A stretch of 64,000 bases of DNA from Rhizobium sp. C1 (lineage in GTDB: Bacteria; Pseudomonadota; Alphaproteobacteria; Rhizobiales; Rhizobiaceae), in NCBI RefSeq assembly GCF_021026335.1, contig NZ_JAJNCY010000007.1:124001-188000 (forward strand). The letters are read 5' to 3'. The first letter of the stretch is position 1. Each line of letters begins with the position of its first letter. Positions 18,800 to 35,115 of this stretch are shown piece after piece. Under the pieces are notes generated by a model. That model was given only the letters and a program-made list of their open reading frames with translations, ran no database searches and was not told where the DNA came from. The position numbers and the translations under genes were made by a program.

Positions 18800-19819
18800 A
18801 TGAGTTCATCACCCCTGAAATGGGTTGCGCGCGCGACATGCCGGCTGCCGGTCCCGGTCATGAAGCTTCTGAGCGGCAAGCCGCATGAAATCGAGGGCAA
18901 ACGCCTCGATCCCGTGGTGCAGTTCATGGTGCGGCACTTCGCCGATCCGCCGGGCACACTCGATTCAGTCGAAAAGACCCGTGCCGGTTTCGACCTGCAA
19001 GGCGACTGGCTGACCCATCCGCCCGCACCTGGCGTCAGGATCGAGCCCTGGCTGGTTCAGGGGCCTGCCGGCCCGATCCGCTGCGAAATCCATCGCCCGG
19101 CTGCCCTGCCCCGCGCGAATGCGCCGGTGCTCGTCTTCTATCACGGCGGAGGCCATGTGGCAGGCTCACTCGAGTCTCACCGCGAAGTCTGCCGACAACT
19201 GGCGCATGAGGGCCAATGCGCTGTCGTCGCCGTCGATTACCGGCTTGCCCCGGAACATCGCTTTCCGGTCGGCATCAGGGACTGCCTCGCGGCCTTCGAT
19301 GCGGTGGTTGTCGAAGCCGATACGCTCGGCTTCGACCGTCGACGGGTCGCGGTGGGAGGCGACAGTGCCGGGGGCAACGCGGCGGCCGTCGTGGCCCAGC
19401 AACGCAGCAATGCTCCTTTCCCGCCCCGGGTCCAGATGCTCTGGGTTCCGTGGCTCGATATGAGCAAGCAGTCGCGCTCCTACCAGCTTTTCGCGGAAGG
19501 TTTCTTCCTCGAAAAGGCAAAGATGGAATGGTACACCGACCTCTATCTCAGCAAACCGGAAGACGCCCTCGACCCGCTGGCCTCACCGCTTCTCGGCGAT
19601 GTGCAAGGCGTCTGCCCGGCCGTGCTGCTGATCGCTGGCTTCGATCCGCTGCGCGACGAGGGCCTCGCCTATGGCGCGAAGCTGAAGTCAGCCGGCATCC
19701 CGACGCATGTGAAAGTTTTCGAGGGTCTCGTTCATCCCTTTATCAACGTGGCAGGTTTCGTGCCGGCGGCCAATGCCGCTTTCACTGAAGCCATGCGACT
19801 TCTCAGAGAGCGGCTGTGA
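18800..19819 (+). CDS. Alpha/beta hydrolase, HSL (hormone-sensitive lipase) family esterase
   Basis: The 339-residue protein has the HSL oxyanion motif HGGG in VFYHGGGHVAGSLESH (about 114), YRLAPEHRFP, the nucleophile elbow GDSAGGN (about 187), an acid residue in GFDPLRDEG and the catalytic His in EGLVHPFIN. AGAGGGAACCAAGATC precedes the ATG. It is divergent from the monooxygenase-esterase fusion across 250 bp and is followed by a second hydrolase gene. It likely hydrolyses short esters or lactones in this catabolic cluster. Confidence 0.9.
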   Translation: MSSSPLKWVARATCRLPVPVMKLLSGKPHEIEGKRLDPVVQFMVRHFADPPGTLDSVEKTRAGFDLQGDWLTHPPAPGVRIEPWLVQGPAGPIRCEIHRPAALPRANAPVLVFYHGGGHVAGSLESHREVCRQLAHEGQCAVVAVDYRLAPEHRFPVGIRDCLAAFDAVVVEADTLGFDRRRVAVGGDSAGGNAAAVVAQQRSNAPFPPRVQMLWVPWLDMSKQSRSYQLFAEGFFLEKAKMEWYTDLYLSKPEDALDPLASPLLGDVQGVCPAVLLIAGFDPLRDEGLAYGAKLKSAGIPTHVKVFEGLVHPFINVAGFVPAANAAFTEAMRLLRERL

Positions 19820-19838
19820 CCCCGGCCACTCGACAAGA

Positions 19839-19867
19839 GCCCGCCCGGGAACAAGCCCCGGGCGGGC
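19839..19867 (+). terminator. GC-rich hairpin between the two esterase genes
   Basis: GCCCGCCCGGG and CCCGGGCGGGC form an 11-bp perfect stem around a 7-nt loop, 20 bp after the first esterase stop. It is followed by CTATCTTCGTC, a weak U-tract, so it may attenuate rather than fully stop transcription into the next gene. Confidence 0.55.
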
Positions 19868-19904
19868 GCTATCTTCGTCATCCATGATCCTAGAGTCACG
19901 AGAC

Positions 19905-20888
19905 ATGATCTTTTTCAGCATTTCGGTCGCCCTGCTAGTGTTCGTCCTTGCGAGCATCGCCTGGGCAAGCCGTCGCAGCGGGATCAGCATGCGGGCCTGG
20001 GCCGTCATAAAGCTGCTGCCGATCCTCTATGGCGCGAGCAACGATCCATCCGTCTTGCTGTCCGAAATCGAAAAGGACCGGCGGCGCGGCCTGGCGCTCC
20101 CACCCCGCGGCCTGCAAAAGAAATGGCATATCCGCGACACGGCAGGTCGCAGCGGGCACCGGTTTGAACTGTCGGCAACGACCGGTCGAACACAGGGTCC
20201 ACACATCCTCTATTTCCATGGCGGGGCCTATGTGATGCAGCTCATTGCCCCACAATGGTCGATCATCGGCGGGCTCGTTGGACGCACAGGCGGCACCGCG
20301 ACGGTTGCGCTTTACCCATTGGCGCCTGAGCATGACTGGCGGCAGGGACTTGCAGCCGCAGACACAGCTTTCGACGAACTGGCGGAAAAGGTCGGCGCGT
20401 CCAATATCGTTGTTGCCGGGGACTCCGCCGGCGGCGGACTGACTTTGGCGCTCGCCCTCAAACGGCGCGACGAAGGCAAGTCGCTGCCAGCCGGCCTCGT
20501 GTTGTTTTCGCCCTGGCTTGATATAACGGTATCCGGCTCCGACCAGCCGGAACTGGAAAAGCGTGACCCATTCCTGAACATCCCGATGCTCAGGCGGGCC
20601 GGTGAACTCTGGGCGCGCGACACAGACCGGGCCACCCCCTATCTGAGCCCGCTCTTCGGCGATCCGCAGGGCCTGCCGCCCATGCTGGTCTTTGGAGGCA
20701 CCCGCGACGTCCTCTATTCCGACGCCCGGCGGTTTGCTGCAAAAGCCAGCCAGGCACGGCTGGAAACATATCCTGAGATGTTCCATGTCTGGATGGCCGC
20801 CCCCATTCCGGAAGCGGAACGGGCACTGGATCAGGCTTCAGCCTTCATGCTGGACATCACACGGGCGCGGCTAAAGCCGGGGCTTTGA
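19905..20888 (+). CDS. Second HSL-family alpha/beta hydrolase, with N-terminal membrane anchor
   Basis: The frame encodes a hydrophobic N-terminal segment (MIFFSISVALLVFVLASIAWA) that looks like a signal anchor. It then has HGGAYVMQL (oxyanion hole, about 104), LYPLAPEHDW, the nucleophile elbow GDSAGGG (about 171), a GGTRDVLYSDA acid motif and FHVWMA with the catalytic His. The ATG at 19905 is preferred; ATG 19884 is also in frame, and longer starts overlap the previous gene. It resembles the upstream esterase and the esterase half of the fusion protein, so three HSL-type domains lie within 5 kb. Confidence 0.87.
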   Translation: MIFFSISVALLVFVLASIAWASRRSGISMRAWAVIKLLPILYGASNDPSVLLSEIEKDRRRGLALPPRGLQKKWHIRDTAGRSGHRFELSATTGRTQGPHILYFHGGAYVMQLIAPQWSIIGGLVGRTGGTATVALYPLAPEHDWRQGLAAADTAFDELAEKVGASNIVVAGDSAGGGLTLALALKRRDEGKSLPAGLVLFSPWLDITVSGSDQPELEKRDPFLNIPMLRRAGELWARDTDRATPYLSPLFGDPQGLPPMLVFGGTRDVLYSDARRFAAKASQARLETYPEMFHVWMAAPIPEAERALDQASAFMLDITRARLKPGL

Positions 20889-21002
20889 CCGCATGACCGC
20901 AAGTCGTTATGGGATGAGTGTTCCGACCTGGGGAGAACACACCGGCTACAGTGCATGGACCTCCAATCTGTCCGTTGATTAGCCGGCTACTGGAATCTGT
21001 TG

Positions 21003-21662
21003 ATGACCAAGGACACTGAACCGAAGACGCGGCAGCGTGCAGCGAAGGCGCGGCGGCCAACTCATGCGCGGGCAACGGCGAATTTTGAGAAACTGTTGCA
21101 GGCGGCGGCAGACGTGCTCGCGGATGTCGGCTTCGAACGGCTGACGTCGAATGAGATCTGCGCGCGCGCTGGACTTACGCCGCCGGCCTTCTATCACTAT
21201 TTCAACAACAAGTATGAAGTCCTCGAAGAGCTGGCCGACCGGCTGGTGCGCAAGCAACATGAAAGCTTTTCGGCCTGGTTTGCAGAGTTCTCCGAAAACG
21301 GCGGCCGCCTTCCTTCCGCCGAGGCGCTCGAAAAGCTGTTCGAGGCGGCGGTTCGCATTCCGGCGCAGGAGCCCAGCGGGATGTGGACAATCCGCGCCTT
21401 GCGTGCGCTTCCCAACCTCGCGCATGTGAGGCTCAAGTGGCAGCGGGTCTATACCGACCAGATCATGGAGGCCGCCCGGCAGCTGGCACCCGATGTGTCG
21501 CCAGAAACTCTGTGGACCCGTGTCCGCATCGTCGTCGAATTCGCCTATATCGTCGGCGAACTGGCGATTGAGGAAGATCGTATTCCGCAGGAGACACTGT
21601 TTCGGCAGGTCGGCCTGATGTTCGGTGGCATCCTCGAAAAGGTTGTTCTCCCCGAAACATGA
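21003..21662 (+). CDS. TetR/AcrR-family transcriptional regulator
   Basis: A 219-residue regulator. After a basic tail (KTRQRAAKARRPTHARATANFEKLLQAAADVLADVGF) it has the TetR HTH in LTSNEICARAGLTPPAFYHYFNNKYEVLEEL, and a C-terminal ligand-binding region (about 75-215). ATG 21003 is used; an overlapping TTG at 21000 is possible. It stands downstream of the esterase pair and converges on the aldehyde dehydrogenase gene, so it is a likely repressor of this catabolic cluster. The ligand is unknown. Confidence 0.92.
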   Translation: MTKDTEPKTRQRAAKARRPTHARATANFEKLLQAAADVLADVGFERLTSNEICARAGLTPPAFYHYFNNKYEVLEELADRLVRKQHESFSAWFAEFSENGGRLPSAEALEKLFEAAVRIPAQEPSGMWTIRALRALPNLAHVRLKWQRVYTDQIMEAARQLAPDVSPETLWTRVRIVVEFAYIVGELAIEEDRIPQETLFRQVGLMFGGILEKVVLPET

Positions 21663-21677
21663 AGCATTCGGCCTGAC

Positions 21678-23075
21678 TTACCGTGTCATGAAACGCGCCA
21701 ACCACTTCGCCATCGCGCCGAAGGGTGGCGAGGCGAGAACCGAGGGATTGAAGAGCCTGATCTTCGCAATGCCGCGGGCGTGGGAAAACCGCACGAATCC
21801 ATCGAAGCCGTGATAGGCCCCCTGCCCCGACGGCCCGACGCCGCCGAAGGGGAGATCGGTCTGGGCGATATGGAGCAACGTGCCATTGATCGTCACATTG
21901 CCGGAAATGGTGTGTCGCAGCAGCCGCTTTTCCGTCTTGCGGTCATGCGTGAAGATGTAGAGCGCCAGCGGCCGCGCTTTTCTGCCGATGAAGGCGATGG
22001 CGTCATCGAGGCTGTCATAGGGGACGATGGGCAGGATGGGCCCGAAGATTTCCTCCTCCATCAGCAGGCAATCGACTGGCGGATCGATGACCAGCGTGGG
22101 CGCAAAACGAGATCCGGCACCGGAGAGGTCGATGTCGCAAGTCACCACCTTCGCGCCCCGCGCCCGCACTTCATCAATGCCAGCGCCGAGCCGCGCACGA
22201 AAGCGTTCAGCGATCAGGCTGGCAAAGTGGCCGGCTGGCGTTGCGTTCGGATAGAAGCTCTCGATGTGCTCTACCAGCGCCGCGACAAGTTGCGGCATCA
22301 TCTCTCGGGGCACAAGCACGTAGTCCGGCGCGATGCAGGTCTGGCCGGCATTCATCATCTTGCCGAAGGCGATGTCGCGGGCGGCGCGCCCGACCGGATA
22401 GTCGGGCGCAATCACCGCTGGCGACTTGCCGCCAAGCTCCAGCGTCAAGGGAGTGAGATGTTCGGCCGCGGCCGCCATCACGCGCTTGCCGATGGCCGTC
22501 GAACCGGTGAAGACGAGGTGATCGAACTGCAGCGCGGAAAAGGCCTGCGCGACCTCGACACCGCCCTCGACCACCGTCACCTCCGCCGGGCTGAAATAGT
22601 TCGGAATGACTTTCGCGAGCAGCGCGGAGGTTTTCGGCACCAGTTCGGAGGGCTTGATCATCGCCCGGTTACCGGCCGCCAGCACATCGACGAGCGGACC
22701 GAGCGCCAGAAGCAGAGGATAGTTCCACGGCACCATGATGCCGATGACGCCAAGCGGCTGATACTCGACCCGGTTCGACACCTGCAGGAATTCCAGCGAA
22801 CTACCGCGTCGCTGCGGCCGCATCCAGCGCCCGACATGGGCGCGGGCATGGCGCAACTCGGCAAGCAGCGGCGCGATTTCCAGAAGCGTCGTCTCATGGC
22901 TTGAGCGCGTCCCGAAATCCGTCGCCACCGCGTCGCAAAAGGCCTCGCCATGTTCCTTGACCAGCCGCCGCAAGCGGTCGAGCCTGTCGCGTCGCATCGC
23001 AAGCGATGGATAGGGCTGTGCACGAAACGCCAGGCGTTGACGCTCGAGAGCAACGTTCAGATGTTCCGTTTGCAT
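21678..23075 (-). CDS. Coniferyl-aldehyde-type NAD(P)-dependent aldehyde dehydrogenase
   Basis: The 465-residue protein from the start at 23075 (MQTEHLNVALERQRLAF) has the ALDH motifs: MVPWNYPLLLALGPLVDVLAAGN, FTGSTAIGKRVM, the catalytic glutamate in LELGGKSP, the catalytic cysteine in NAGQTCIAPDYV, and EEEIFGPILPI with LPFGGVGPSGQGAYHG. The short length, DFGTRSSHETTLLEI near the N terminus and the C-terminal hydrophobic tail match the coniferyl/long-chain aldehyde dehydrogenase branch. It would oxidise aldehydes to acids in the surrounding pathway. It is divergent from the AraC gene across 221 bp. Confidence 0.9.
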   Translation of the reverse strand: MQTEHLNVALERQRLAFRAQPYPSLAMRRDRLDRLRRLVKEHGEAFCDAVATDFGTRSSHETTLLEIAPLLAELRHARAHVGRWMRPQRRGSSLEFLQVSNRVEYQPLGVIGIMVPWNYPLLLALGPLVDVLAAGNRAMIKPSELVPKTSALLAKVIPNYFSPAEVTVVEGGVEVAQAFSALQFDHLVFTGSTAIGKRVMAAAAEHLTPLTLELGGKSPAVIAPDYPVGRAARDIAFGKMMNAGQTCIAPDYVLVPREMMPQLVAALVEHIESFYPNATPAGHFASLIAERFRARLGAGIDEVRARGAKVVTCDIDLSGAGSRFAPTLVIDPPVDCLLMEEEIFGPILPIVPYDSLDDAIAFIGRKARPLALYIFTHDRKTEKRLLRHTISGNVTINGTLLHIAQTDLPFGGVGPSGQGAYHGFDGFVRFSHARGIAKIRLFNPSVLASPPFGAMAKWLARFMTR

Positions 23076-23296: not shown

Positions 23297-24337
23297 ATGA
23301 AAACGGTGGATACGCGCTATGTGACGGCCAATATTCCGGCCTTCCTGATCCGCAGCCTCATCGCGACGCTCAACGATCTCGGTTACGCAACGTCGCGGCT
23401 GACGGTCGGGTTGGGCGTGAGCCTTGAGGATCTCGCCGATCCCGCCTGCCGCATCTCCTTCCGGCAGGGCCGCGAAATCGTGCTGCGCGCGCTGCGGATG
23501 GCGCAAGGGCACGCGCTCGGACTGGAGACCGGCATCCGGGAAAAGATAACCTCCGTAGGCCTCGTTGGTTATGCCATGCTGACGGCAGCCACTGTGGGCG
23601 AGGCCGTCAATATCGGTCTCGCGCTCCAGAAGGACACGGGCAGCATGCTCGAGTTCGACACCAAGGACTTGGCCGAGGGCGTCGGCTATACGGCGGCGAG
23701 CCGGTTTCCCGACCCGGACATCTATGCCTTTCTGGTCGAGGAAGCCTTTGCCAGCTTTATGGGCATCGGCCGCGAACTGGCGGGCGAGGGCTTCCGGCCG
23801 CTGCGCGTCGATCTCGCCTATCCGCCGCCACCTCACGCGGAGGAATACGGTCGCATCTTCGGCTGCCCGATCCGTTTCGGCCAACTGCAAAATGCCTTCG
23901 TCTGCGAAACGCGCTGGTACCAGATGCCCATTGCCAGCGCCGATCCGTTCAGCCACCGGCAATTGCTCGAATTCCTCGCCTATAGCCGGCTCAAAAGCCG
24001 CGAGGCGGTCGAGATCATCGAGCAGGTGGAGCGCGCGCTCCGGCAAGATCTCGCCGGGCGGAATACGATTGCCGATGTGGCGAAGGAACTGGGCATGAGC
24101 GAAAGGTCACTTCGCCGCCGGCTGGCCGAAAGCGGCATGTCGTTCCAGGCCCTGCTGGACGGACTGCGCAAGGGCCGCGCGCTGGAGCTTCTGGCCAATC
24201 CGGCCATGCCGGTCGAACAGATTGCCCATGCCGTGGGCTTTACGGACCCGCACAATTTTCGCCGTGCCTTCCGCCGCTGGACGGGCGCTACGCCCAGCGC
24301 CATGCGCGCCGATGTGGCTGCGGATTGGCCGAAATAG
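23297..24337 (+). CDS. AraC-family transcriptional regulator (OruR-like N-terminal domain)
   Basis: A 346-residue protein with an N-terminal Arabinose_bd-type sensor domain (about 10-200: IPAFLIRSLIATLNDLGY, then VGLVGYAMLTAATVGEAVNIGL). Its C-terminal AraC double HTH contains NTIADVAKELGMSERSLRRRLAESGMSFQALLDGLR and VEQIAHAVGFTDPHNFRRAFRRWTG. CGAGGAGGGGTCAC precedes the ATG at 23297. It is divergent from the aldehyde dehydrogenase and 107 bp upstream of the kinase operon, so it could control either one. Confidence 0.92.
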   Translation: MKTVDTRYVTANIPAFLIRSLIATLNDLGYATSRLTVGLGVSLEDLADPACRISFRQGREIVLRALRMAQGHALGLETGIREKITSVGLVGYAMLTAATVGEAVNIGLALQKDTGSMLEFDTKDLAEGVGYTAASRFPDPDIYAFLVEEAFASFMGIGRELAGEGFRPLRVDLAYPPPPHAEEYGRIFGCPIRFGQLQNAFVCETRWYQMPIASADPFSHRQLLEFLAYSRLKSREAVEIIEQVERALRQDLAGRNTIADVAKELGMSERSLRRRLAESGMSFQALLDGLRKGRALELLANPAMPVEQIAHAVGFTDPHNFRRAFRRWTGATPSAMRADVAADWPK

Positions 24338-24444
24338 ACCCCTGATCGGACACATCAGCTGCTTTTGGGCCGCCCGGTTTCACGATAGCATTGTGACAAA
24401 TGGGTGAAGAGCGCCGTCAAGCGCCGCCCTTCCGGGAACGAGCG

Positions 24445-26031
24445 ATGAAGACGTCCGACCAATATATCCTGGCCATCGATCTGGGCACCAGCGGCTGCAA
24501 GGTGGGCCTGGTGTCAAGCCGCGGAGCGATTGTCGCCTGGGCGTTTCGCCCGGTCGAACTGCTGGTGGTCGACGGCATCGGCGCGGAACAGCGCCCGGAA
24601 GACTGGTGGAATGCCTTTCTGGAGGCAAGCCGGGATGTCCTTTCGCAGCGCGCTGTGCCTGCTGGGCAGGTGGCAGGCATCTGCGCTTCTACGCAGGGCG
24701 AAGGCACGATCGCAGTGGACCGCAACGGCCAGCCGCTCACCAACGGGATCACCTGGCTCGACATGCGCGGCGCGCAGCATCTGAAGAAATCGATGCGCGG
24801 TGCGCTGAAGGTCGCCGGCTACAACGCGGTCAAGCTGCAGAAGTGGCTTCGCCTCTGCGGCGGCGCGCCTGCCCTGTCTGGGAAGGACCCCGCCGGCCAC
24901 ATGCTCTTTGTCCGCGACGAGCTGCCCGGCGTCTATGAGAAGACCTACAAGTTCCTGAACGTCCTCGATTTCTTCAACCTGCGCCTCACCGGCCGCTTCT
25001 GCGCGACGCAGGATTCCATCCTGACCTCCTGGGTCACGGACAATCGCGACGTGAACGCAATCCGCTATGACGACGGCCTGATCGCCGCAAGCGGCATCGA
25101 AAAGTCGAAATTCCCTGATCTCGTGCGCTGCACCGATGTCATCGGCACGTTGCTGCCCGAGGTCGCCAACCAGCTCGGCCTGTCTCCTGAAACCCCCGTC
25201 GTCGCTGGCGCGATCGATAACTCGGCCGCAGCTATCGGCGCCGGAGCCTATGAAGATTATGAGGCCCATCTCTACATGGGCTCCTCCTCCTGGGTCGGGG
25301 CGCATGTGCCCTTCAAGAAGACGAGCGTCTTCGACCAGATCGCCGCCGTGCCCTGCCCCGCCCCGTCGAAATATCTGATGATGGCGATGCAATCGAGCGG
25401 CGCGGCCAACATCGCCTTCCTCAAGGACCGCATGGTCTATCACGATGACGGCCTCTACAAGGGCGAACCGACCCCGGATGTCTATGCGGTGCTCGACGAG
25501 ATTTCCGCCCGCACGCCGGCCGGTGCGCAAGGCATGGTCTATCTGCCATGGCTCTTCGGCGAGCGCAGCCCGGTGGACGATGCCTCGCTCCGCGCCGGCA
25601 TCTTCAACATGAGCATCGAGCACAATCGCGAGACGCTGGTGCGCGCCGTTTTCGAGGGCGTGGCGCTGAATACCCGCTGGATGATGCGCCCGGTCAACAA
25701 GTTCCTCGGCCGCAAGATCGAGGAACTGACCATCATCGGCGGCGGCGCCATGTCCAATTCCTGGTGCCAGATCTTCGCCGATGTCCTCAATGTCCAAATT
25801 CGCCAGCCACGCGACCCGATGAAGGCAAACGCGCGCGGCGCGACCTTCATCGCGCTTCACGGGTTGAACATCATGGACATGCAGGACGCAACGAAATCCG
25901 TCGTCATCGAGCGAGTCTATGAACCGCAGGCTGCCCATCGTCAGCTCTATGACGAGCGTTTCGGGATTTTCACGGAGCTGCACAAGCGCCTTGCCCCGCT
26001 CTACCGCCGCCTGAATGGCGCAAAAGGATGA
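24445..26031 (+). CDS. FGGY-family carbohydrate kinase
   Basis: The 528-residue protein has the FGGY N-terminal phosphate loop in YILAIDLGTSGCKVGLVSS, TWLDMRGAQHL, and the C-terminal half with VVAGAIDNSAAAIGAGAYED, YLPWLFGERSPVDD and the FGGY signature region IEELTIIGGGAMSNSWCQIFADVLNV. FGGY kinases phosphorylate sugars or polyols. The sequence is xylulokinase-like, but the substrate cannot be read. It leads a four-gene operon: 5 bp to the aldolase gene. ATG 24445 is chosen (GGGAACGAGCG upstream); ATG 24400 is an alternative that adds 15 residues. Confidence 0.9.
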   Translation: MKTSDQYILAIDLGTSGCKVGLVSSRGAIVAWAFRPVELLVVDGIGAEQRPEDWWNAFLEASRDVLSQRAVPAGQVAGICASTQGEGTIAVDRNGQPLTNGITWLDMRGAQHLKKSMRGALKVAGYNAVKLQKWLRLCGGAPALSGKDPAGHMLFVRDELPGVYEKTYKFLNVLDFFNLRLTGRFCATQDSILTSWVTDNRDVNAIRYDDGLIAASGIEKSKFPDLVRCTDVIGTLLPEVANQLGLSPETPVVAGAIDNSAAAIGAGAYEDYEAHLYMGSSSWVGAHVPFKKTSVFDQIAAVPCPAPSKYLMMAMQSSGAANIAFLKDRMVYHDDGLYKGEPTPDVYAVLDEISARTPAGAQGMVYLPWLFGERSPVDDASLRAGIFNMSIEHNRETLVRAVFEGVALNTRWMMRPVNKFLGRKIEELTIIGGGAMSNSWCQIFADVLNVQIRQPRDPMKANARGATFIALHGLNIMDMQDATKSVVIERVYEPQAAHRQLYDERFGIFTELHKRLAPLYRRLNGAKG

Positions 26032-26035
26032 TGTG

Positions 26036-26689
26036 ATGATCAGTTTCGCCAGAGAAAGACAGGATGTCGCCGACATGTGCCGTGTGCTGGCCGATCACGG
26101 CTATTTCGCCGGCACGGGCGGCAATCTCGGTTTGCGCCTCAATGAAAAGTTGATGGCCGTGACACCGTCCGCGCTCGATTACTACCTCATCCAGGCCGAG
26201 GACGTCGTCGTCCTCGATATCAACACGCTCACAGTCGTGGAGGGCGAACGAACCCCGACGGTCGAAAAGGCGCTGCATGCCGCAATGCTGAAAGCACACC
26301 CTGACCATGGCGTCAGCATCCACACCCACCAGCCGGTGGCGAGCGCGGTTGCGCTGTCTCACGAGGTTCTGCCATGGCCTGACGGCATGGATCGAACCGG
26401 ACTCGGCCCCCATATCGCCGTCATCCCCTATCGACCCTCGGGCACCGGCATGCTGGCAAAGGTCTTCCGCAAGACCCTGCGCTCCAACATCAACGCCTAT
26501 CTGATGGCCAGCCATGGCGCGATCTGCTCGGCGCCGGATTTTCAGGCGGGGCTTGGCGTCATTCGCAAGATCGATGCGGCGGCAGCCGCTTTCCTGCGCG
26601 CGCGCCTGGAGCGCCGCGCCAACCTCGACAAACAGCTTCAGGCGAGCCTCCTGAAGACCCTGAACAAGATTGAAATGATGGGAGCTTGA
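26036..26689 (+). CDS. Class II aldolase/adducin family aldolase (fuculose-phosphate aldolase-like)
   Basis: The 217-residue protein keeps the class II aldolase motifs: GTGGNLGLRL (phosphate-binding glycines), TPTVEKALHAAMLKAHPD, metal ligands in SIHTHQP, and the third histidine in MASHGAI. It would cleave a phosphorylated keto sugar into dihydroxyacetone phosphate and an aldehyde, which fits the kinase just upstream. The start at 26036 is preferred because AAAAGGATGATGTG precedes it; ATG 26015 overlaps the kinase gene. The exact substrate is unknown. A second, histidine-less relative lies two genes downstream. Confidence 0.88.
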   Translation: MISFARERQDVADMCRVLADHGYFAGTGGNLGLRLNEKLMAVTPSALDYYLIQAEDVVVLDINTLTVVEGERTPTVEKALHAAMLKAHPDHGVSIHTHQPVASAVALSHEVLPWPDGMDRTGLGPHIAVIPYRPSGTGMLAKVFRKTLRSNINAYLMASHGAICSAPDFQAGLGVIRKIDAAAAAFLRARLERRANLDKQLQASLLKTLNKIEMMGA

Positions 26690-26692
26690 GAC

Positions 26693-28156
26693 ATGAACAT
26701 GAGCGCAGACATCTCCACCAACGCCTATTCGATCAGCGCCTGGCCGGATTATCCGGACCTGATGGACCGTCTCAACGCGCTCCTCAAGCAACCGGTGCGC
26801 GGCATCGCACGACAGAACATGCCGCAGGTGCTCGATTACTTCGAACAGAAGTGCAAGACCTCCAAGGCTCTGGCCGAGCGCGCCAAGGAAGTCATTCCCG
26901 GCGGCGTCCAGCATAATCTCGCCTTCAACTATCCCTTCGCCATCGCCGCGGCCAAGGTGGACGGCGCCTACATGTGGGACGAGGACGGCAACCGCTATAT
27001 CGACTTTCTCCAGGCCGGCGGCCCGACCATTCTGGGTTCGAACTATCAGCCGGTTCGGCAGAAGGTTCACGAGATCGTCGAAAACTGCGGCCCGGTGACC
27101 GGCCTGCTGCACGAATACGAGATCAAGCTCGCCGAGATCATCCGCAAGTACATGCCCGGCATCGAAATGTTCCGCATGCTGGGTTCGGGTACTGAGGCGG
27201 TCATGGGTGCAATCCGCCTTGCCCGCGCCCATACGGGCAAGAAATGGGTGATCAAGGTCGGTGGCGACTACCACGGCTGGTCTGACCAGATGGTCTACGG
27301 CATGCGCGTTCCCGGCACCGGCCGCCGCGAGGCTGTCGGCATTCCGAAGGGCTCCACGGCCTACACCCAGGAAGTCTTCCCGAACGAACTCGGGTCGCTT
27401 CGCCGCAAGCTGATGCTCAACAAGATCCGCGGCGGGACCGCCGCTATCATCGTCGAGCCGCTGGGCCCCGAAAGCGGCACACGGCCGGTGACGCCGGAAT
27501 ACAACCGCGAGGTTCGCAAGCTTTGCGACGAATTCGGTGCACTGCTGATCTTCGACGAAGTCGTCACCGGCTTCCGCGTCGGCATGGGCGGCGGTCAGGG
27601 ATACTTCAAGGTCAAGCCCGACCTCACCGTCTTCGGCAAGGCGATCACCGGCGGCTATCCGATGGCCGGCGGCATCGGGGGACCCAAGGAGATCATGATG
27701 ACGCTCGCCGGCGGCATCGGCGGCAAGGGCGGCAAGCGCGCTTTTGTTGGCGGCACGCTCTCGGCCAATCCGCTCTCCTGCGTGGCGGGCTATTACGCTA
27801 TTGAGGAAATGGCCCGCACGGGCGCCCCGGTTCTCGCCGGCCGCGCCGGCGATCGGTTGGCAGCGGGCCTCAAGGAGATCATGAACCGCCTCGGTCTGCC
27901 TTACGTCGTCTATAACATGGGCTCCATCGTTCATCTGCAGACCTCCGCTGTGCTCTTGATGAGCATGCGCAACCCGATCAAGCTGATGCGCGAGGCTGAC
28001 GCCCGCAAGCACCTGATGGAGGAAATGGGCGCGGCCTATCTCTCACGCGGGATCCTGACGCTTGCCGGCAGCCGCATCTATACGAGCATGGCCGACACGG
28101 ATGACGTTATTGACGATGCGTTGAACCGCTTCGAAGACGTCTTCAAGCTGGTGTAA
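26693..28156 (+). CDS. Class III PLP-dependent aminotransferase (glutamate-1-semialdehyde aminomutase-like)
   Basis: A 487-residue PLP enzyme. It has GSGTEAVMGAIRLARAHTG, GDYHGWSDQMVYG, the PLP-phenol aspartate in LLIFDEVVTGFRV, the Schiff-base lysine in LTVFGKAITGGYPM, and FVGGTLSANPLSC. The N-terminal extension (about 1-70) precedes the typical VIPGGVQHNLAFNYPF opening. Class III enzymes move amino groups on omega-amino acids or semialdehydes. Being 3 bp after the aldolase gene is unusual for a sugar operon and suggests that the substrate or an aldolase product bears an amino group. Substrate not determined. Confidence 0.9.
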   Translation: MNMSADISTNAYSISAWPDYPDLMDRLNALLKQPVRGIARQNMPQVLDYFEQKCKTSKALAERAKEVIPGGVQHNLAFNYPFAIAAAKVDGAYMWDEDGNRYIDFLQAGGPTILGSNYQPVRQKVHEIVENCGPVTGLLHEYEIKLAEIIRKYMPGIEMFRMLGSGTEAVMGAIRLARAHTGKKWVIKVGGDYHGWSDQMVYGMRVPGTGRREAVGIPKGSTAYTQEVFPNELGSLRRKLMLNKIRGGTAAIIVEPLGPESGTRPVTPEYNREVRKLCDEFGALLIFDEVVTGFRVGMGGGQGYFKVKPDLTVFGKAITGGYPMAGGIGGPKEIMMTLAGGIGGKGGKRAFVGGTLSANPLSCVAGYYAIEEMARTGAPVLAGRAGDRLAAGLKEIMNRLGLPYVVYNMGSIVHLQTSAVLLMSMRNPIKLMREADARKHLMEEMGAAYLSRGILTLAGSRIYTSMADTDDVIDDALNRFEDVFKLV

Positions 28157-28160
28157 CGCG

Positions 28161-28811
28161 ATGAACGCCAACCGCACCGCCATCAAGGACACCCTTGGAC
28201 TTGCCGCAGCAAGGCTCGCGGGCAAGGGTCTTTTGAAACCCGGTGATACGCTCTCCCAGCGTATCCCGGAACAAAACGCCATCATCCTGACCCGTATCAC
28301 GGCCGGGCAGGACGTACCCGAGGAGTTCACCTGGTTGAGCCTCACTGGTCCGGTATCCAATTTTCATCAGGTCATCTACGGCGCAAGGCCCGATGTCGGG
28401 GCGATCGCCGCAGGCCAGTTCACCTGGACAAACAGGCTCGCGCGCCTCGACCTGTCACTGCCGCCGATCTTCGACGAACAGATCCGTCAACTCGGCGTCG
28501 AGGGCCGCCGCGTGGCCCGTCGCTCGAACGAGCTGGGCGCATTTCCGGCTCTGCAAAACGGCGCGAATGGCTATTGCCTCGACGACCTCTCGATCTGCCT
28601 GGGCATGGGCCTTGAGCGCCTACTGCTGAACATCGAAATCCTGGAAAAATCCGCCCAAAGCTTCGTGCTTGCCGCCAGCTCGGGCCTCAAGGTCCGCCGT
28701 ATTCCCTGGCTGATCAAATATATCGCCAACGGTCGGCTCAAGAAGGACCAGCAGGATGCCGCTGCCCGCCATCTGCGCGGTGAACGGTCCATCCTGAAAG
28801 CAGGATATTAA
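28161..28811 (+). CDS. Aldolase-fold protein lacking the class II metal ligands (probable non-catalytic paralogue)
   Basis: This 216-residue protein aligns by eye with class II aldolases: LGLAAARLAGKGLLKPGDTLSQRIP, NFHQVIYGARPDVGAI and a C-terminal helical part. Where the family has the HTH metal ligands it has AGQFTW, and where the SHGA-type histidine is expected it has NGANGY. The zinc site therefore seems to be absent. It begins 5 bp after the aminotransferase stop and ends the operon. It may bind a ligand or pair with the active aldolase encoded at 26036. The reading is an eye-made alignment; function unknown. Confidence 0.72.
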   Translation: MNANRTAIKDTLGLAAARLAGKGLLKPGDTLSQRIPEQNAIILTRITAGQDVPEEFTWLSLTGPVSNFHQVIYGARPDVGAIAAGQFTWTNRLARLDLSLPPIFDEQIRQLGVEGRRVARRSNELGAFPALQNGANGYCLDDLSICLGMGLERLLLNIEILEKSAQSFVLAASSGLKVRRIPWLIKYIANGRLKKDQQDAAARHLRGERSILKAGY

Positions 28812-28870
28812 AGAAAGGCCGCCGGAACCAACCTCGACGCCCCCCATCAGACGAGACCTCTATAAGAAAA

Positions 28871-28894
28871 AAGGGGCGAGTTGCATCGCCCCTT
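28871..28894 (-). terminator. Rho-independent terminator of the chemoreceptor gene
   Basis: AAGGGGCGA and TCGCCCCTT form a perfect 9-bp stem with a 6-nt loop. On the minus strand the stem is followed by TTTTCTTATA, and it lies 28 bp after the chemoreceptor stop. It may also act on transcripts from the kinase operon, which ends at 28811 on the other strand. Confidence 0.8.
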
Positions 28895-28921
28895 CTGCTT
28901 CTCTTGTGTAATGGAAGAATT

Positions 28922-31261
28922 TCAGAACTCTTCCCAATCCTTTGCCGCCGCGTTGGAGGCAGCGGCCTGCCTGCCGCTACCGAATGCGCTGGCCAGGCGA
29001 TTGCCGAGTGCGCGGGCGGCAGAGGCGATCGGGCGATGCTCGGTGCTTGAAGCGGCTACGGGGCGCGAAGCGGCGGACGCCGCCATGCCCGTGCCACCGA
29101 TGCGGAACTGTGCGATCAGGCGGTTCAACTCGTCGGCCTCATTGGCGAGCGAATGGCTGGCCGCCGTCTGCTCCTCCACCATCGCCGCATTCTGCTGCGT
29201 CGCCTGGTCGATATTGTTGACGGCTTCGCTGATTTCCTTCAGCCCCGTCGACTGTTCGCGCGAGGAGCGCACAATGGCGGTCACGTTCTGGTCGATTTCC
29301 TGAACCTGATTGATGATTTCCAGCAGCGACTTGCCGGTCTCGCCGACCAGTTCCACGCCAATCGTCACCTGGCTGCCCGACTTGGTGATCAGCGCCTTGA
29401 TCTCCTTGGCGGCATTGGCCGAACGCTGGGCCAGCTCGCGCACTTCCTGGGCGACGACCGCAAAGCCCTTGCCGGCTTCGCCAGCACGCGCGGCTTCGAC
29501 GCCGGCATTCAGCGCCAGCAGGTTCGTCTGGAAGGCAATCTCGTCGATGACGCCGATGATGTTGGAGATCTCGCGCGAGGAGGCTTCGATGCCCGACATG
29601 GCATCGACCGCGCGCTGTACCACTTCGCCAGACTTTTCCGCGCCGCGTCGCGTTTGCTCGACAAGGGCACCGGCATCTTCGGCCCGCTTGGTCGAGTCGC
29701 GCAGAGTCGTGGAGATCTCCTCAAGAGCGGCAGCCGTCTCCTCGACCGAGGCAGCCTGCTGTTCGGTGCGCTTGGCGAGGTCGTCGGAGGCCGAGCGGAT
29801 TTCGGAGGAACCTGCGCGGATCGCATTGGCATTCTCGCCGACGGAGCGCAGCGCGCCCTGCAGCTTCTCGACCGAGATATTGAAGTCATGGCGCAACCGA
29901 TCGAGCGAGCCGGCAAAGGCTGTGTCGATGCGATGCGTCATGTCGCCTTCGGCAAGCTTGTTCAGGCCTTCAGCCAGTGCCTCCACGGCGGCCTGTGTCT
30001 GGCGCTCGCGCTCAGCGGCCTCTTCCGCACGTTCGCGGCGTTCGGCTTCGGTCAGCGCGCGGTCGCGCTCCGCCTCGGTCTCCAGACGGGTCTTGGCAAT
30101 GGTGGCATCGCGCAGCACGGCGAGCGAACGGGCCATCTCGCCGATTTCGTCCTTGTGGACCGACTGCGACAGGTCAACATCAGTCTTGCCGCGGGCGATC
30201 TCGCTGGTGGCGACGATGACCGTGTCAAGGCGCTTGCGCATGCGGTTGGCGAGAAACAAGCCGATGGCAACCATGAGGCCGGCGGCAATCGCGATGATGA
30301 TGATGGAGGTGACGGCCAGCGACGTCACCTTGGCAAAGACGACGGCTTTGGGAACGCTGACGACGGTAAACCACGTCGCGTCTGCGGCGAGCGGAACCGG
30401 CACGGCAACAGACAGATAGGGCGTTCCATCCTTGTCGGCGATCTCGAACGGCTTTTCGGGGTTCTTGATCATGGTCTGCCAAGCCGTCACATCAAGCCCG
30501 GAATCCTTCAACGGCTTGCCGAGCGCGGCTTTGTCGGGATGGCTGACAACATTGCCATTATGGCTCAGCAGCGCGACATAGCCCACACCGAGGGGCTTCA
30601 GCTTTGCCATCTCTGTGGAGAGGGCATCCAGCGCACTATCGACACCAACGACGCCGACGAACTTGCCGTCGATCATCACCGGCGTCATGAAGGACGTCAT
30701 GTTTACGACCTTGTCGCCGACCTTGTAGTCATAGGGCTCGGTCAGCATGTCCTTGCCGGTTGCTTTCGGCACCAGATAATAGTCGCCGTCACCGGGCTTT
30801 TCATAGTCGACAAGCGGCATAAGTTCGACCTTGCCGTCGACACGGGCCACATAGGGAATGTATCGGCCGGTCGCATCGTGACCGGGCTTGTTGACGAAAT
30901 CCGCGTCCTTGCCGTCAAAGGCGTTCGGCTCCCAGCCGGTGCTAAGACCGAATGCGGAAGGATTGTCGGCAAGCAGACGCTGCATATAGCCCGTCATGCC
31001 CTCGCGATTCGGTGTGCCTGCCGATTTCATCGCCTGGAGCGCTGAGCGCATGTTCCAGGCGAGTTCCTTGATTCCGGCGAAATGCGTCTCGACCTTGCCG
31101 GCGCTGGAATGCGCTGTCGCGACCATTTCCGAAACCGATCTTTCCTCGACAGCGTGATATGACATCCAAAGCAGGATGCCGGCCGTTGCTACAGTGGTTG
31201 CAACACCGGTCGCCACAATGGCAAGCATGTTCCGACCAATCGCGGTCTTCGGGATCAACAT
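28922..31261 (-). CDS. Methyl-accepting chemotaxis protein with double-Cache sensor
   Basis: A 779-residue transmembrane receptor. It has TM1 at about 10-33, a large periplasmic dCache-type domain (about 35-290, with STGWEPNAFDGKDADFVN and VVGVDSALDAL), TM2 (about 305-330), a HAMP segment, and a C-terminal signalling domain with the hairpin tip sequence EIAFQTNLLALNAGVEAARA. It ends in DWEEF, a xWxxF pentapeptide that tethers CheR/CheB in other receptors. AGGAGAG precedes the ATG at 31261; the longer frame to 31312 has no such site. The gene converges on the kinase/aldolase operon, so it may sense the substrate of that pathway. Confidence 0.93.
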   Translation of the reverse strand: MLIPKTAIGRNMLAIVATGVATTVATAGILLWMSYHAVEERSVSEMVATAHSSAGKVETHFAGIKELAWNMRSALQAMKSAGTPNREGMTGYMQRLLADNPSAFGLSTGWEPNAFDGKDADFVNKPGHDATGRYIPYVARVDGKVELMPLVDYEKPGDGDYYLVPKATGKDMLTEPYDYKVGDKVVNMTSFMTPVMIDGKFVGVVGVDSALDALSTEMAKLKPLGVGYVALLSHNGNVVSHPDKAALGKPLKDSGLDVTAWQTMIKNPEKPFEIADKDGTPYLSVAVPVPLAADATWFTVVSVPKAVVFAKVTSLAVTSIIIIAIAAGLMVAIGLFLANRMRKRLDTVIVATSEIARGKTDVDLSQSVHKDEIGEMARSLAVLRDATIAKTRLETEAERDRALTEAERRERAEEAAERERQTQAAVEALAEGLNKLAEGDMTHRIDTAFAGSLDRLRHDFNISVEKLQGALRSVGENANAIRAGSSEIRSASDDLAKRTEQQAASVEETAAALEEISTTLRDSTKRAEDAGALVEQTRRGAEKSGEVVQRAVDAMSGIEASSREISNIIGVIDEIAFQTNLLALNAGVEAARAGEAGKGFAVVAQEVRELAQRSANAAKEIKALITKSGSQVTIGVELVGETGKSLLEIINQVQEIDQNVTAIVRSSREQSTGLKEISEAVNNIDQATQQNAAMVEEQTAASHSLANEADELNRLIAQFRIGGTGMAASAASRPVAASSTEHRPIASAARALGNRLASAFGSGRQAAASNAAAKDWEEF

Positions 31262-31512
31262 TGGCTTCTCTCCTAGCCTCCAAGGCAAGCGGCGTATTTT
31301 ATCCATAAACACCGGGAAATCGGGCCCGCGTGTCTGAATGCTTTGGCTGGGGAGTCTGCTACTTCTTGGTTGAGAAATTCATAACGCATTAGATTTTTTG
31401 AATCCCGCATACGAGCGATATCGCGAAGATTAGGAGGTAGCCGCGTAAGAGGGGCCGCCAGATGGGCGGGAACCTGCCCGGAACCAGGGTCCACCGGGCA
31501 GGCTTGTGCGGG

Positions 31513-32874
31513 TCAGGCCGGGACTGCGGGCCCGATCTTGCGGCGCGTGAAGCGTGTCAGCAAGACGAAGCCCGTCATCGTCACGGCATAGATCGCGAAG
31601 ATCTGCACGTTGAAGTAAATCACCGCGGCGAAGGCGATCGTCGCCATGCCCAGCGCAAAGGCGGGGGCTATCGGGTAGAGCGGTGCGCGAAACGGCCGAT
31701 CAAGGCCCGGTTCGGCTCTGCGCAGTTTGAACAGACTCAGCATGCTCATGATATACATGGTCAGCGCCCCGAAGACCGACATGGTCACGATGCTTGCGGT
31801 CAGCGACTGGCCGGCGATCGACACCAGATTGTCGCTGAAAATCGCCGCGACACCGATGACGCCGCCGGCAATCGTGGCGACATGCGGGGTGCGGAAGCGT
31901 GGATGCAGACGGCTGAAGAACTCCGGCAGGAAGCCGGCGCGGGACATGGCGAAAATCTGGCGCGCATAGCCCATGATGATCCCGTGGAAGGACGCAACAA
32001 GGCCGAAAAGACCGAGCCAGACAAGCATGTGCAGCCAGCCGCTCGATGTGCCGACGACGAGCTTCATGGCCTGCGGCAGCGGGTCGTTCAGGTTCGACAG
32101 GGCCTTCCAGTCGCCCGAACCGCCGGCAAACAGCATGACGCCAAAGGCGAGAGCGACGAGCGTGAGAACGCCAGTGATATAGGCGATCGGGATCGTGCGC
32201 TTCGGGTTCTTGGCTTCTTCGGCCGCCATGGCGACGCCCTCGATCGCGAGGAAAAACCAGATGGCGAAGGGAATGGCTGCGAAGATGCCGCCAATGGCCG
32301 CCACGCTGAAATGATCCTGGCCGCTCCAGCCACCCGCCGCGAAATTCGCGACACTGAAGGCCGGCGAAACAACGCCCATGAAGACCAGCAATTCTCCGAC
32401 CGCAAGGATCGTCACGAAGAGTTCAAAGGTCGCTGCAATCTGTACACCGACGATGTTCAGCGCGATGAAGACAATATAGGCGCCGAGCGCTGCGATCTTG
32501 GGATCAAGACTCGGGAACTGGACGTTCAGATAGGCACCGATGGCCAGCGCGATGGCAGGCGGGGCAAAGACGAATTCGAAAAGCGTGGCAAAGCCCGCGA
32601 TCGCGCCACCCGTCGGGCCGAAGGCGCGCAGCGAATAGGCAAACGGGCCGCCGGCCTGCGGAATTGCCGTGGTGAGTTCCGTGAAGGAAAAGATGAAGGC
32701 GACATACATCGCCGCGATGACCGTCGTCGTCACCAGGAAGCCGAGCGTGCCGGCGGTTGCCCAGCCATAGCTCCAGCCGAAATACTCACCCGAGATGACA
32801 AGGCCAACGGCAATGCCCCACAGGTGAAACGTGTTCAGTGTTTTCTTCAGTGTTACGTCGTGTGTCTGGCTCAT
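31513..32874 (-). CDS. eat: Ethanolamine permease (APC superfamily)
   Basis: The 453-residue inner-membrane protein has about twelve hydrophobic segments and the amino-acid permease start LNTFHLWGIAVGLVISGEYFGWSYGW, where the consensus SGEYFGWNYG is a mark of ethanolamine permeases. EGVAMAAEEAKNPKRTIP is the conserved loop of APC carriers. It lies 46 bp downstream of eutC, giving the order eutB-eutC-permease, and supplies the substrate for the lyase. AGGGGAATAGCC precedes the ATG. Confidence 0.9.
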   Translation of the reverse strand: MSQTHDVTLKKTLNTFHLWGIAVGLVISGEYFGWSYGWATAGTLGFLVTTTVIAAMYVAFIFSFTELTTAIPQAGGPFAYSLRAFGPTGGAIAGFATLFEFVFAPPAIALAIGAYLNVQFPSLDPKIAALGAYIVFIALNIVGVQIAATFELFVTILAVGELLVFMGVVSPAFSVANFAAGGWSGQDHFSVAAIGGIFAAIPFAIWFFLAIEGVAMAAEEAKNPKRTIPIAYITGVLTLVALAFGVMLFAGGSGDWKALSNLNDPLPQAMKLVVGTSSGWLHMLVWLGLFGLVASFHGIIMGYARQIFAMSRAGFLPEFFSRLHPRFRTPHVATIAGGVIGVAAIFSDNLVSIAGQSLTASIVTMSVFGALTMYIMSMLSLFKLRRAEPGLDRPFRAPLYPIAPAFALGMATIAFAAVIYFNVQIFAIYAVTMTGFVLLTRFTRRKIGPAVPA

Positions 32875-32920
32875 TTTAGGCTATTCCCCTTTTGTTTGAT
32901 GAGCTTTTCGTGAAGTACAG

Positions 32921-33724
32921 TTATCTCCCGGCAGCGACCTCCAGTTGCGAGGTGGCGTCGTTGTCGATTGCGTCTCCCGACCCCATGTCGTCCTTGAGGT
33001 TGACGCCGGTCAGGCCCAGACGAAGCGCGGCATTTGCCAGCCAGACGAGCTTGGACGCCGCTTGGTCGTAGGACAGTCCGCCCTTGCCATGGATGTTGGA
33101 AATGCAGTTGCGCTCGTGGTCGCGGCGGCCGCGGCGAGGGCCGAAGGTGAGATATACGCCGAGGCTCTCGGCAACGCTGAGACCAGGCCGCTCGCCAATC
33201 AGCATCGCCACCAGGCGGGCATCGAGCCGTTCGCCGACATCGTCTCCCAGCGCGACGCGGGCCTGTGTCGCCACCACGACTGGAGCGACCTTGAAACTGG
33301 ACAGACGCTTCAGACAGGCGTGAACCAGCGGCGAGGCATGCATCTGAACCGCAGTCGCCGAAAGGCCGTCGCCGATCACGAAGGCGATATCGTATTGCCG
33401 CCCGGCCTTATCCAATTCGCCGGCGGTTTCGTCGCTCAGCTTCCGCCCGAGATCCGGGCGGGTGAGATAGGTACGGCGATCGGGCGCCTCGCTTCTGACC
33501 CGCAGGAGTTCCAGCGGTGCGAGTTCGGAGGCCAATGCGTCGACATCCAGAGGCTTGTGGACGGCATCGCGGGCGCTGGCATGGGCGTGTTGAAACTCCA
33601 GCACCGCCTTGAGCGGAATGGCGTTGCCGCTGCGGCCGAGGCCGATGCGCGCCGTTGTCGCCGACCGGAGCCGCGACCACGGATCGAGATGCGACGTGAT
33701 GATGTTGCCCTGGTCCTTTTTCAT
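32921..33724 (-). CDS. eutC: Ethanolamine ammonia-lyase small subunit
   Basis: EutC is the small subunit of the adenosylcobalamin-dependent lyase that converts ethanolamine to acetaldehyde and ammonia. The 267-residue protein has the EutC features DPWSRLRSATTARIGLGRSGNAIPLKAVLEFQHAHASARDAVHKPLD, YDIAFVIGDGLSATAVQMHA and RPGLSVAESLGVYLTFGPRRG with the C-terminal ERNCISNIHGKGG. It overlaps eutB by 4 bp (ATGA), so the subunits are coupled. Confidence 0.95.
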   Translation of the reverse strand: MKKDQGNIITSHLDPWSRLRSATTARIGLGRSGNAIPLKAVLEFQHAHASARDAVHKPLDVDALASELAPLELLRVRSEAPDRRTYLTRPDLGRKLSDETAGELDKAGRQYDIAFVIGDGLSATAVQMHASPLVHACLKRLSSFKVAPVVVATQARVALGDDVGERLDARLVAMLIGERPGLSVAESLGVYLTFGPRRGRRDHERNCISNIHGKGGLSYDQAASKLVWLANAALRLGLTGVNLKDDMGSGDAIDNDATSQLEVAAGR

Positions 33725-35115
33725 GCCACGAGGCTCGCATTGGAGAGAAGGCGGGACATGCGCGGATCGTTCAGCTCCAGCTCGCGGATCCGGCCGTCCG
33801 GTCCAGCAATGCCCATGCGGTCGAGCCAGGTCTCGAATTCCGGTGCGGCCTTCACGCCCAGCGTCTCGCGCAGATACAGCACGTCGTGGAACGACAGGCT
33901 CTGGTAGTTCAGCATGATGTCGTCGGAGCCGGGCACGGCGATGAGGAAGGTTGCGCCGGCCACCGTCAGCAGGGTCATCAGGTCGTCCATGTCGTCCTGA
34001 TCGGCCTCGGCATGGTTGGTGTAACAGACGTCACAGCCCATCGGCAGGCCAAGCAACTTGGCGCAGAAGTGATCTTCGAGCCCGGCGCGAATGATCTGCT
34101 TGCCGTCATAGAGATATTCCGGCCCGATAAAGCCGACGACAGTGTTGACCAGCAGCGGATCAAAAGCGCGGGCGACCGCATAGGCGCGCGTTTCCATCGT
34201 CTGCTGATCGACACCGTGATGGGCGTTGGCCGAGAGCGCTGCCCCCTGCCCCGTTTCGAAATACATGAAGTTATTGCCAACCGTGCCACGCTTCAGCGCA
34301 AGGCCGGCCTCGTAGGATTCCCTCAGCACCGCAAGATCGATACCGAAGGAGCGGTTGGCGGCCTGCGAGCCCGCAATCGACTGGAAGACCAGATCGAGCG
34401 GCGCGCCGCGATTCATGATCTCGATAGCATTGGTGACATGGGTCAGCACGCAGGTCTGCGCCGGGATGTCATATTGCTGGCGCACCTCGTCCAGCATCTC
34501 CATCAGCGCGATTGCGTTCGGAATATTGTCGGTCGCCGGATTGATGCCGATGACGGCATCGCCGACACCAAAGAGAAGCCCGTCCAGAACGGAGGCTGCG
34601 ATGCCACGGACATCGTCGGTCGGATGGTTGGGCTGCAGACGCGTACCCAGCCGGCCCTGAAGACCGAGCGTGTTGCGGAAGGCTGTCGTCACCCGACATT
34701 TGCGCGCGACCGATATCAGATCCTGATTGCGCATGAGCTTCGAAACCGCTGCGACCATCTCCGGTGTAAGGCCCCGCGACACGGCGGAAAGCGCCTTCGC
34801 GTCCGCGGCGAGCAGCCAGTCGCGCAGCTCGCCCACCGTCAGATGGGCGACGGGTGCGAACGCAATCTTGTCATGCGAGTCTATGATGAGGCGCGTGACC
34901 TCGTCTTCTTCGTAGGGAACAACAACCTCGTTGAGGAAGAGCTTGAGCGGCAGATCCGCCAGAACATAGCGGGCAGCAACCCTCTCGGCATCGCTCTGGG
35001 CAGAGAGCCCTGCAAGGTCATCGCCGGAGCGGCGGTGCGATGCGACCGCCAGCACATGTTTCAAATCAGAAAACGCGTAGTGTTCGTTTCCCAGGATGGT
35101 TGCATAGACAGCCAT
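33721..35115 (-). CDS. eutB: Ethanolamine ammonia-lyase large subunit
   Basis: EutB carries the active site of ethanolamine ammonia-lyase. The 464-residue protein has the expected TIM-barrel sequence: SHDKIAFAPVAHLTVGELRDWLL, the ethanolamine-binding region VGDAVIGINPATD, QTCVLTHVTNAIE, YFETGQGAALSANAHHGVDQQTMETRAY and CYTNHAEADQDDMDDLMTLL. AGGAAAGGGCTCC precedes the ATG. No eutA reactivase, shell or other microcompartment genes are next to it, so this is the simple cytosolic pathway. An aldehyde dehydrogenase for acetaldehyde is not in the operon. Confidence 0.96.
   Translation of the reverse strand: MAVYATILGNEHYAFSDLKHVLAVASHRRSGDDLAGLSAQSDAERVAARYVLADLPLKLFLNEVVVPYEEDEVTRLIIDSHDKIAFAPVAHLTVGELRDWLLAADAKALSAVSRGLTPEMVAAVSKLMRNQDLISVARKCRVTTAFRNTLGLQGRLGTRLQPNHPTDDVRGIAASVLDGLLFGVGDAVIGINPATDNIPNAIALMEMLDEVRQQYDIPAQTCVLTHVTNAIEIMNRGAPLDLVFQSIAGSQAANRSFGIDLAVLRESYEAGLALKRGTVGNNFMYFETGQGAALSANAHHGVDQQTMETRAYAVARAFDPLLVNTVVGFIGPEYLYDGKQIIRAGLEDHFCAKLLGLPMGCDVCYTNHAEADQDDMDDLMTLLTVAGATFLIAVPGSDDIMLNYQSLSFHDVLYLRETLGVKAAPEFETWLDRMGIAGPDGRIRELELNDPRMSRLLSNASLVA

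Follow-up and report, generated by a model that had tools for sequence, protein, structure and literature searches.

A stretch of 64,000 nucleotides from Rhizobium sp. C1 (contig NZ_JAJNCY010000007.1, positions 124,001 to 188,000 of the forward strand; hereafter referred to as the window) contains a compact operon of four genes, which encode an FGGY kinase, a class II aldolase, a class III aminotransferase and a relative of the aldolase in which the metal ligands are missing. In window coordinates, the genes are:

24445–26031, + strand: gene 1, FGGY kinase; an in-frame ATG at 24400 opens the reading frame
26036–26689, + strand: gene 2, class II aldolase with the metal ligands kept and an FDEQ loop absent, assigned by Pfam, PDB match and residue table
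26693–28156, + strand: gene 3, class III aminotransferase of the glutamate-1-semialdehyde-aminomutase-like branch, assigned by Pfam and PDB match
28161–28811, + strand: gene 4, metal-less aldolase-fold protein with the FDEQ loop, assigned by hhalign, AlphaFold, Foldseek and motif count

The aldolase start was taken as ATG 26036, with GTG 26033 and ATG 26015 also in frame, and this choice gives intergenic gaps of 4, 3 and 4 bp. A preliminary description of the locus had recognised four tightly packed genes of these kinds, and Pfam, hhalign, AlphaFold and Foldseek agree with it. The short gaps, the conserved gene order and the gene fusions described below speak for co-transcription of the aminotransferase with the other three genes.

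The kinase contains the Pfam domains FGGY_N (E 5.6e-41) and FGGY_C (9.3e-25), and its closest relatives are xylulokinase XylB in NCBIfam (244.3 bits, below the cut-off of 380.25) and xylulose kinase 2itm in the PDB (1.7e-38). Gene 2 matches Aldolase_II (6.7e-35) and, in the PDB, the fuculose phosphate aldolases 6btd and 4c24; its best NCBIfam models, the L-fuculose-phosphate and ribulose-1-phosphate aldolases, stay below their cut-offs (98.6 bits against 264 for the L-fuculose-phosphate aldolase equivalog). Gene 3 belongs to Aminotran_3 (1.6e-49), with 4e77 as best PDB match (2.7e-68), and scores 274.6 bits with the NCBIfam hemL model, which does not reach the cut-off of 527.3. The arginine in the NSPVRAF stretch of glutamate-1-semialdehyde aminomutase (GSAM) has an established role in that enzyme; in our alignment it faces a gap in the aminotransferase, which agrees with a substrate lacking a carboxylate, specificity as such not being readable from sequence. 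The mean column identity among 30 chosen aminotransferases, 77%, is an argument for a single substrate. The predicted model of the aminotransferase was poor, with a predicted local distance difference test (pLDDT) of 71.

Distribution and order of the gene set

A scan of a species-level genome collection (tblastn, E ≤ 1e-3) gave 467 stretches with a relative of the aminotransferase, perhaps not all of them orthologues at this threshold, and the best 80, which are 64–98% identical, were kept. Among these best 80 loci, the fetched flanks hold a kinase in 66, an aldolase in 76, both in 65, and a gene-4 homologue in 32. Dropped before counting were four gene-4 matches that re-hit the aldolase (L045, L063, L068 and L081) and, of 81 aldolase matches, the four of 150 residues or fewer. 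Together with the fusions, this neighbourhood search bears out the view of the preliminary description that the kinase, the aldolase and the aminotransferase belong to a single route. The set of these three genes was found across five phyla; a set that recurs in several phyla is not due to chance. The gene set is ancient and widespread, and very probably represents one conserved catabolic route. Closer to the window its distribution is sparse: at E ≤ 1e-150 the aminotransferase is present in one of 297 genomes sampled from the order, namely the window's own, and in three of six genomes of the genus.

The genes follow the order kinase–aldolase–aminotransferase–gene 4 in Pseudomonadota and Acidobacteriota. 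In most Chloroflexota loci the aldolase and aminotransferase come first, often with a transporter after them, and then the kinase, and a Bacillota locus (L088) has kinase and aldolase on the opposite strand. Aldolase and aminotransferase are fused in one reading frame in four Actinomycetota loci, and a metagenome bin joins kinase and aldolase in a single frame of 779 residues (L029:4449–6785). An apparent triple fusion in locus L071 was discarded, as the open reading frame merely ran upstream beyond the real gene. In six Chloroflexota loci (L033, L042, L044, L047, L053 and L072) the kinase scores about 300 bits rather than about 650, as if the step were needed and the kinase replaceable.

The set also occurs on plasmids. 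Two of 72,556 plasmid records carry the aminotransferase (E ≤ 1e-100), from Burkholderia ambifaria and Butyrivibrio fibrisolvens, and kinase and aldolase adjoin it. On the Butyrivibrio plasmid (L093:8894–13491), a GtrA-family gene separates the aldolase from the aminotransferase, and the aldolase is divergent.

Complementary losses in two aldolase-fold proteins

Neither Pfam nor NCBIfam contains a family that gene 4 matches at E ≤ 0.001. The gene-4 family aligns with the single-copy aldolases, i.e., those from loci without gene 4, in hhalign (100%, E 1.4e-43), the AlphaFold model of the window's protein has a mean pLDDT of 92 and a predicted template-modelling score (pTM) of 0.90, and its best Foldseek match in the PDB is L-fuculose-1-phosphate aldolase 4c24 (E 3.9e-10, TM 0.74). 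Gene 4 thus has the class II aldolase fold.

The residues kept by the two proteins were compared in an alignment of 77 aldolases, 43 from loci without and 34 from loci with gene 4, against a FucA reference. The glutamate and the three histidines that bind the metal are kept in all 77, as are Asn29 and a serine or threonine at position 71 of the phosphate site; Ser72 is found in two, and is otherwise Val or Ile. The position of FucA Tyr113 is Asp in 42 of the 43 aldolases without gene 4, and variable in the 34 others. An FDEQ loop motif at this position, counted by a regular expression on the alignment slice, is present in 41 of the former (all but the Bacillota copies L088 and L093) and absent from all of the latter. 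The gene-4 proteins show the opposite pattern: all 36 match xEQxR, they also keep the C-terminal stretch of the single-copy aldolases, and H-x-H is missing from 35 of them. In the window's gene 4, the metal-ligand columns hold other residues. These complementary losses had gone unnoticed in the preliminary description.

Profile comparison gives scores of 425.2 between the partner aldolases and the single-copy aldolases, 276.8 between gene 4 and the single-copy aldolases, and 91.7 between gene 4 and its partner. Mapped on the aminotransferase tree, gene 4 changes state once and the FDEQ motif twice, so that the counts show retention of one event and not many independent events.

Tyr113 and the C-terminal tail of a FucA subunit reach into the active site of its neighbour, and the mutants Y113F, Y209F and R212A are named in PDB titles among the Foldseek matches of gene 4. 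Because the losses in genes 2 and 4 are complementary, and because the FucA loop and tail serve the neighbouring subunit, we infer that the two proteins probably form a heteromeric aldolase with a shared active site, to which gene 2 would contribute the metal site and gene 4, as partner subunit, the FDEQ loop and the tail. Such a split aldolase, if true, would offer a clear-cut natural example of a duplicated protein whose two copies lost complementary features.

A candidate pathway for phytosphingosine

Based on the gene set and its conservation, we infer a series of reactions, in which a likely overall outcome is conversion of an amino alcohol to dihydroxyacetone phosphate (DHAP) and an aldehyde. 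The aminotransferase would remove the amine at C2 to give a 1,3,4-trihydroxy-2-ketone, i.e., a ketose with an alkyl tail. The C1 hydroxyl group of this ketone would then be phosphorylated by the FGGY kinase, and the FucA-type aldolase would cleave the C3–C4 bond to release DHAP and a fatty aldehyde (pentadecanal in the case of C18 phytosphingosine), which the adjacent class-3 aldehyde dehydrogenase could oxidise. A scheme of C2 deamination, C1 phosphorylation and aldol cleavage between C3 and C4 uses every enzyme and would need a 2-amino-1,3,4-triol, of which phytosphingosine is the common natural example. The operon may thus be a catabolic pathway for such a triol, most likely the long-chain base phytosphingosine, a reading for which we see the chances as evenly balanced; phytosphingosine as the main substrate has the same even standing. 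Somewhat below this, and tentative, is the broader proposal that at least five bacterial phyla break down free phytosphingosine by transaminase, FGGY kinase and aldolase, and that the aldolase is an obligate heteromer in Pseudomonadota and Acidobacteriota.

The configuration of the substrate supports the phytosphingosine reading. By our own derivation from established stereochemistry, as opposed to a tool result, (2S,3S,4R) phytosphingosine gives a (3R,4R) ketone, because the priority order changes at C3 only. L-fuculose and D-ribulose are both (3R,4R), and D-ribo phytosphingosine deaminated at C2 would accordingly share this configuration with the substrates of the nearest aldolases.

Further indications come from neighbouring genes, which were grouped into BLAST clusters of which representatives only were scanned; the labels TonB, TetR (in Chloroflexota), GH1 and GH3 were given by eye. 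The aldehyde dehydrogenase upstream of the operon is closest in the PDB to steroid aldehyde dehydrogenase 9nxl (2.5e-102), followed by class-3 aldehyde dehydrogenase 1ad3 and fatty aldehyde dehydrogenase 4qgk, and its cluster is found in 19 of the 32 gene-4 loci. This clustering is relevant to the order of the steps, since kinase and aldolase could instead cleave a ketose, aminated or plain, and leave the resulting aldehyde or amino aldehyde to the aminotransferase. The branch to which the aminotransferase belongs does handle aldehyde carbons, as in GSAM, and the gene order varies between phyla and holds no information on reaction order. With a dedicated aldehyde dehydrogenase so often clustered with the operon, and a transporter relative that carries amino alcohols (see below), transamination after cleavage is nevertheless improbable. 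Even less probable is a biosynthetic direction, in which the aldolase would couple an aldehyde to DHAP, with the aminotransferase making the amino alcohol head of a lipid. The aldolase and aminotransferase reactions are reversible, which is established chemistry, but a kinase, an aldehyde dehydrogenase, transporters, and TetR and AraC regulators suit nutrient use better, as does the sparse distribution within the order and the genus.

Other neighbours would fit the proposed lipid substrate. A FadL-type porin cluster occurs in seven of the 32 gene-4 loci, three times at the locus edge (family checked on L015), and a TonB-receptor-like cluster in ten. In locus L025, an endoglycoceramidase gene separates the AraC gene from the kinase (6jyz, 7.3e-93; EGCase II, 2.7e-24). 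Locus L027, which has no kinase match, contains a weak neutral-ceramidase-like gene (28.1 bits, cut-off 32.1) divergent from the aldolase. On the Burkholderia plasmid (L092), the aldehyde dehydrogenase is followed by an 83-residue Mpo1-like gene, from the family of 2-hydroxypalmitate dioxygenase, then by a transposase and, further on, an amidase. Neither the Mpo1-like gene nor the ceramidase-like gene of L027 had a tblastn match in any other fetched locus.

As for the substrate, the same chemistry could act on a small water-soluble amino polyol, such as a 2-amino-2-deoxy-alditol, to give a ketose, its C1 phosphate, and finally DHAP and a short aldehyde. The aldolase and kinase are of sugar type, and glycosidases adjoin some loci (GH27 in L022; GH35-like and GH92 in L031). 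Moreover, a Chloroflexota cluster of major facilitator superfamily (MFS) transporters is present in 27 of the 48 loci without gene 4 (L056:5333–6544 and 26 others), in many of them between aminotransferase and kinase, and the one member scanned, that of L056, is strikingly close to animal FLVCR1/2 (2.7e-40), which are named choline/ethanolamine and heme transporters. The FLVCR-like transporter supports an amino-alcohol substrate, of small size as much as a lipid. The class-3 aldehyde dehydrogenase, the FadL-type porin and the sphingolipid-type neighbours argue against a small amino polyol, and we know of no abundant natural amino polyol of the 2-amino-2-deoxy-alditol kind. We therefore regard this alternative as unlikely, if less so than the two considered above. 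An amine-bearing substrate, as anticipated in the preliminary description, remains probable, while the amino sugar or amino polyol suggested there is less favoured, as the neighbourhood points to a lipid base.

A number of observations weigh against the phytosphingosine pathway. FucA Tyr113 and Phe131 are not kept in the aldolases, and 14 of the 80 loci are without a kinase match; some of these end at a contig edge, and L027, L043, L055 and L083 have full flanks. The best NCBIfam model for the aldehyde dehydrogenase is benzaldehyde dehydrogenase MdlD, below its cut-off, and the 48 loci that lack gene 4 never show the aldehyde dehydrogenase cluster. A small amino alcohol would suit the FLVCR-like transporter no less than a lipid. 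Each of the three sphingolipid-type neighbours was seen in one locus, after the idea had been formed and without a chance control, and the glycosidases likewise in one or a few loci; the endoglycoceramidase, ceramidase-like and Mpo1-like genes are not found beside the window's operon. Counting carrier genomes only, a neutral ceramidase above cut-off is encoded by few of them, two of 32 in one set and seven of 48 in another, and an endoglycoceramidase by three of 42 carriers, so that the latter was rejected as a general partner. Its two other copies were judged non-adjacent because their contig numbers differ from those of the operon.

The open-access literature (subscription papers and preprints being outside this scope) yielded neither a described pathway with this gene set nor a breakdown of phytosphingosine by an aldolase, in line with the preliminary description. 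A match to a known operon was rejected, as every specific kinase, aldolase and aminotransferase family stayed below its cut-off, and the DHAP shunt and the apiose, erythritol and sulfosugar routes were dropped, none of which to our knowledge combines an aminotransferase with this set. The L-fucose/D-arabinose route, with L-fuculokinase and L-fuculose-1-phosphate aldolase, likewise uses an FGGY kinase and a metal aldolase of FucA fold to form DHAP and an aldehyde, and has the 3R,4R configuration of the proposed pathway. Unlike that route, the operon has an aminotransferase in place of the isomerase, misses the family cut-offs, adds a metal-less aldolase-fold subunit, and replaces FucA Tyr113 and Phe131. 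In the sphingosine-1-phosphate lyase route, a lipid kinase is followed by a pyridoxal phosphate (PLP)-dependent lyase that cuts C2–C3 with the amine still in place. Phosphorylation at C1 and a subsequent C–C cleavage that yields a fatty aldehyde would be common to both, whereas the operon would employ an FGGY kinase and a metal aldolase and cut C3–C4 after deamination. PDB entry 6hbs, which we take to be the aminopentol aminotransferase of fumonisin degradation, is also a class III aminotransferase and presumably acts on a sphingoid-like amino alcohol. We know of no kinase or aldolase step in that system, and an orthologous relationship was rejected as too distant (91.5 bits for 6hbs, 234 for GSAM).

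Bases of the phytosphingosine type are among the main constituents of sphingolipids in plants and fungi, and sphingoid bases have antimicrobial activity. According to a study of Pseudomonas aeruginosa, which leaves the bacterial metabolism of sphingoid bases open, plants release these bases into the rhizosphere; sphBCD, which includes a predicted PLP-dependent aldolase, removes sphingoid bases including phytosphingosine, and for sphBC, this metabolism needs a periplasmic oxidoreductase and a cytochrome c, with the product unidentified (PMC11893366). These gene families differ from those of the operon. According to the study, some strains must have other means of sphingoid-base metabolism (PMC11893366). 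A dedicated, widely spread operon, if true, would make this metabolism directly testable in bacteria and tie lipid turnover to DHAP-forming sugar chemistry.

Genes surrounding the operon

The remaining features close to the operon in the window are:

23297–24337, + strand: AraC-type regulator directly upstream of the kinase (Pfam Arabinose_bd and HTH_18)
21678–23075, − strand: class-3 aldehyde dehydrogenase, upstream (Pfam Aldedh); TTG 23174 opens the reading frame, and the likely start is ATG 23075
21000–21662, + strand: TetR-type regulator, upstream (Pfam TetR_N)
28869–28896, called on the − strand: GC-rich terminator-like hairpin between the operon and a convergent chemoreceptor gene (promoter/terminator scan)

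By tblastn, homologues of the AraC gene are present in 20 of the fetched loci, with weak matches in two, and those of the TetR gene in ten, where they sit next to the operon in Dyella, Burkholderia and Rhodoferax, among others. Two alpha/beta hydrolase genes (Abhydrolase_3) at 18800–20888 (+ strand) precede the TetR gene, and tblastn over all other fetched loci gave no match to them. Elsewhere, two other MFS families beside the operon had no PDB match, and a 2-hydroxyacid-dehydrogenase-like gene (labelled by eye) is located near the aminotransferase in L043, L058 and L077, which are without a kinase match. DUF1329 genes are found near the operon in a Pseudomonas locus (L030:860–4038, together with a DUF1302 gene) and in Telmatospirillum (L027:12337–13767).

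Downstream in the window, the chemoreceptor-like gene (28922–31312) is followed by genes for an ethanolamine permease, EutC and EutB at 31513–35115 (− strand). All three exceed their NCBIfam cut-offs, which places a second amino-alcohol locus beside the operon.

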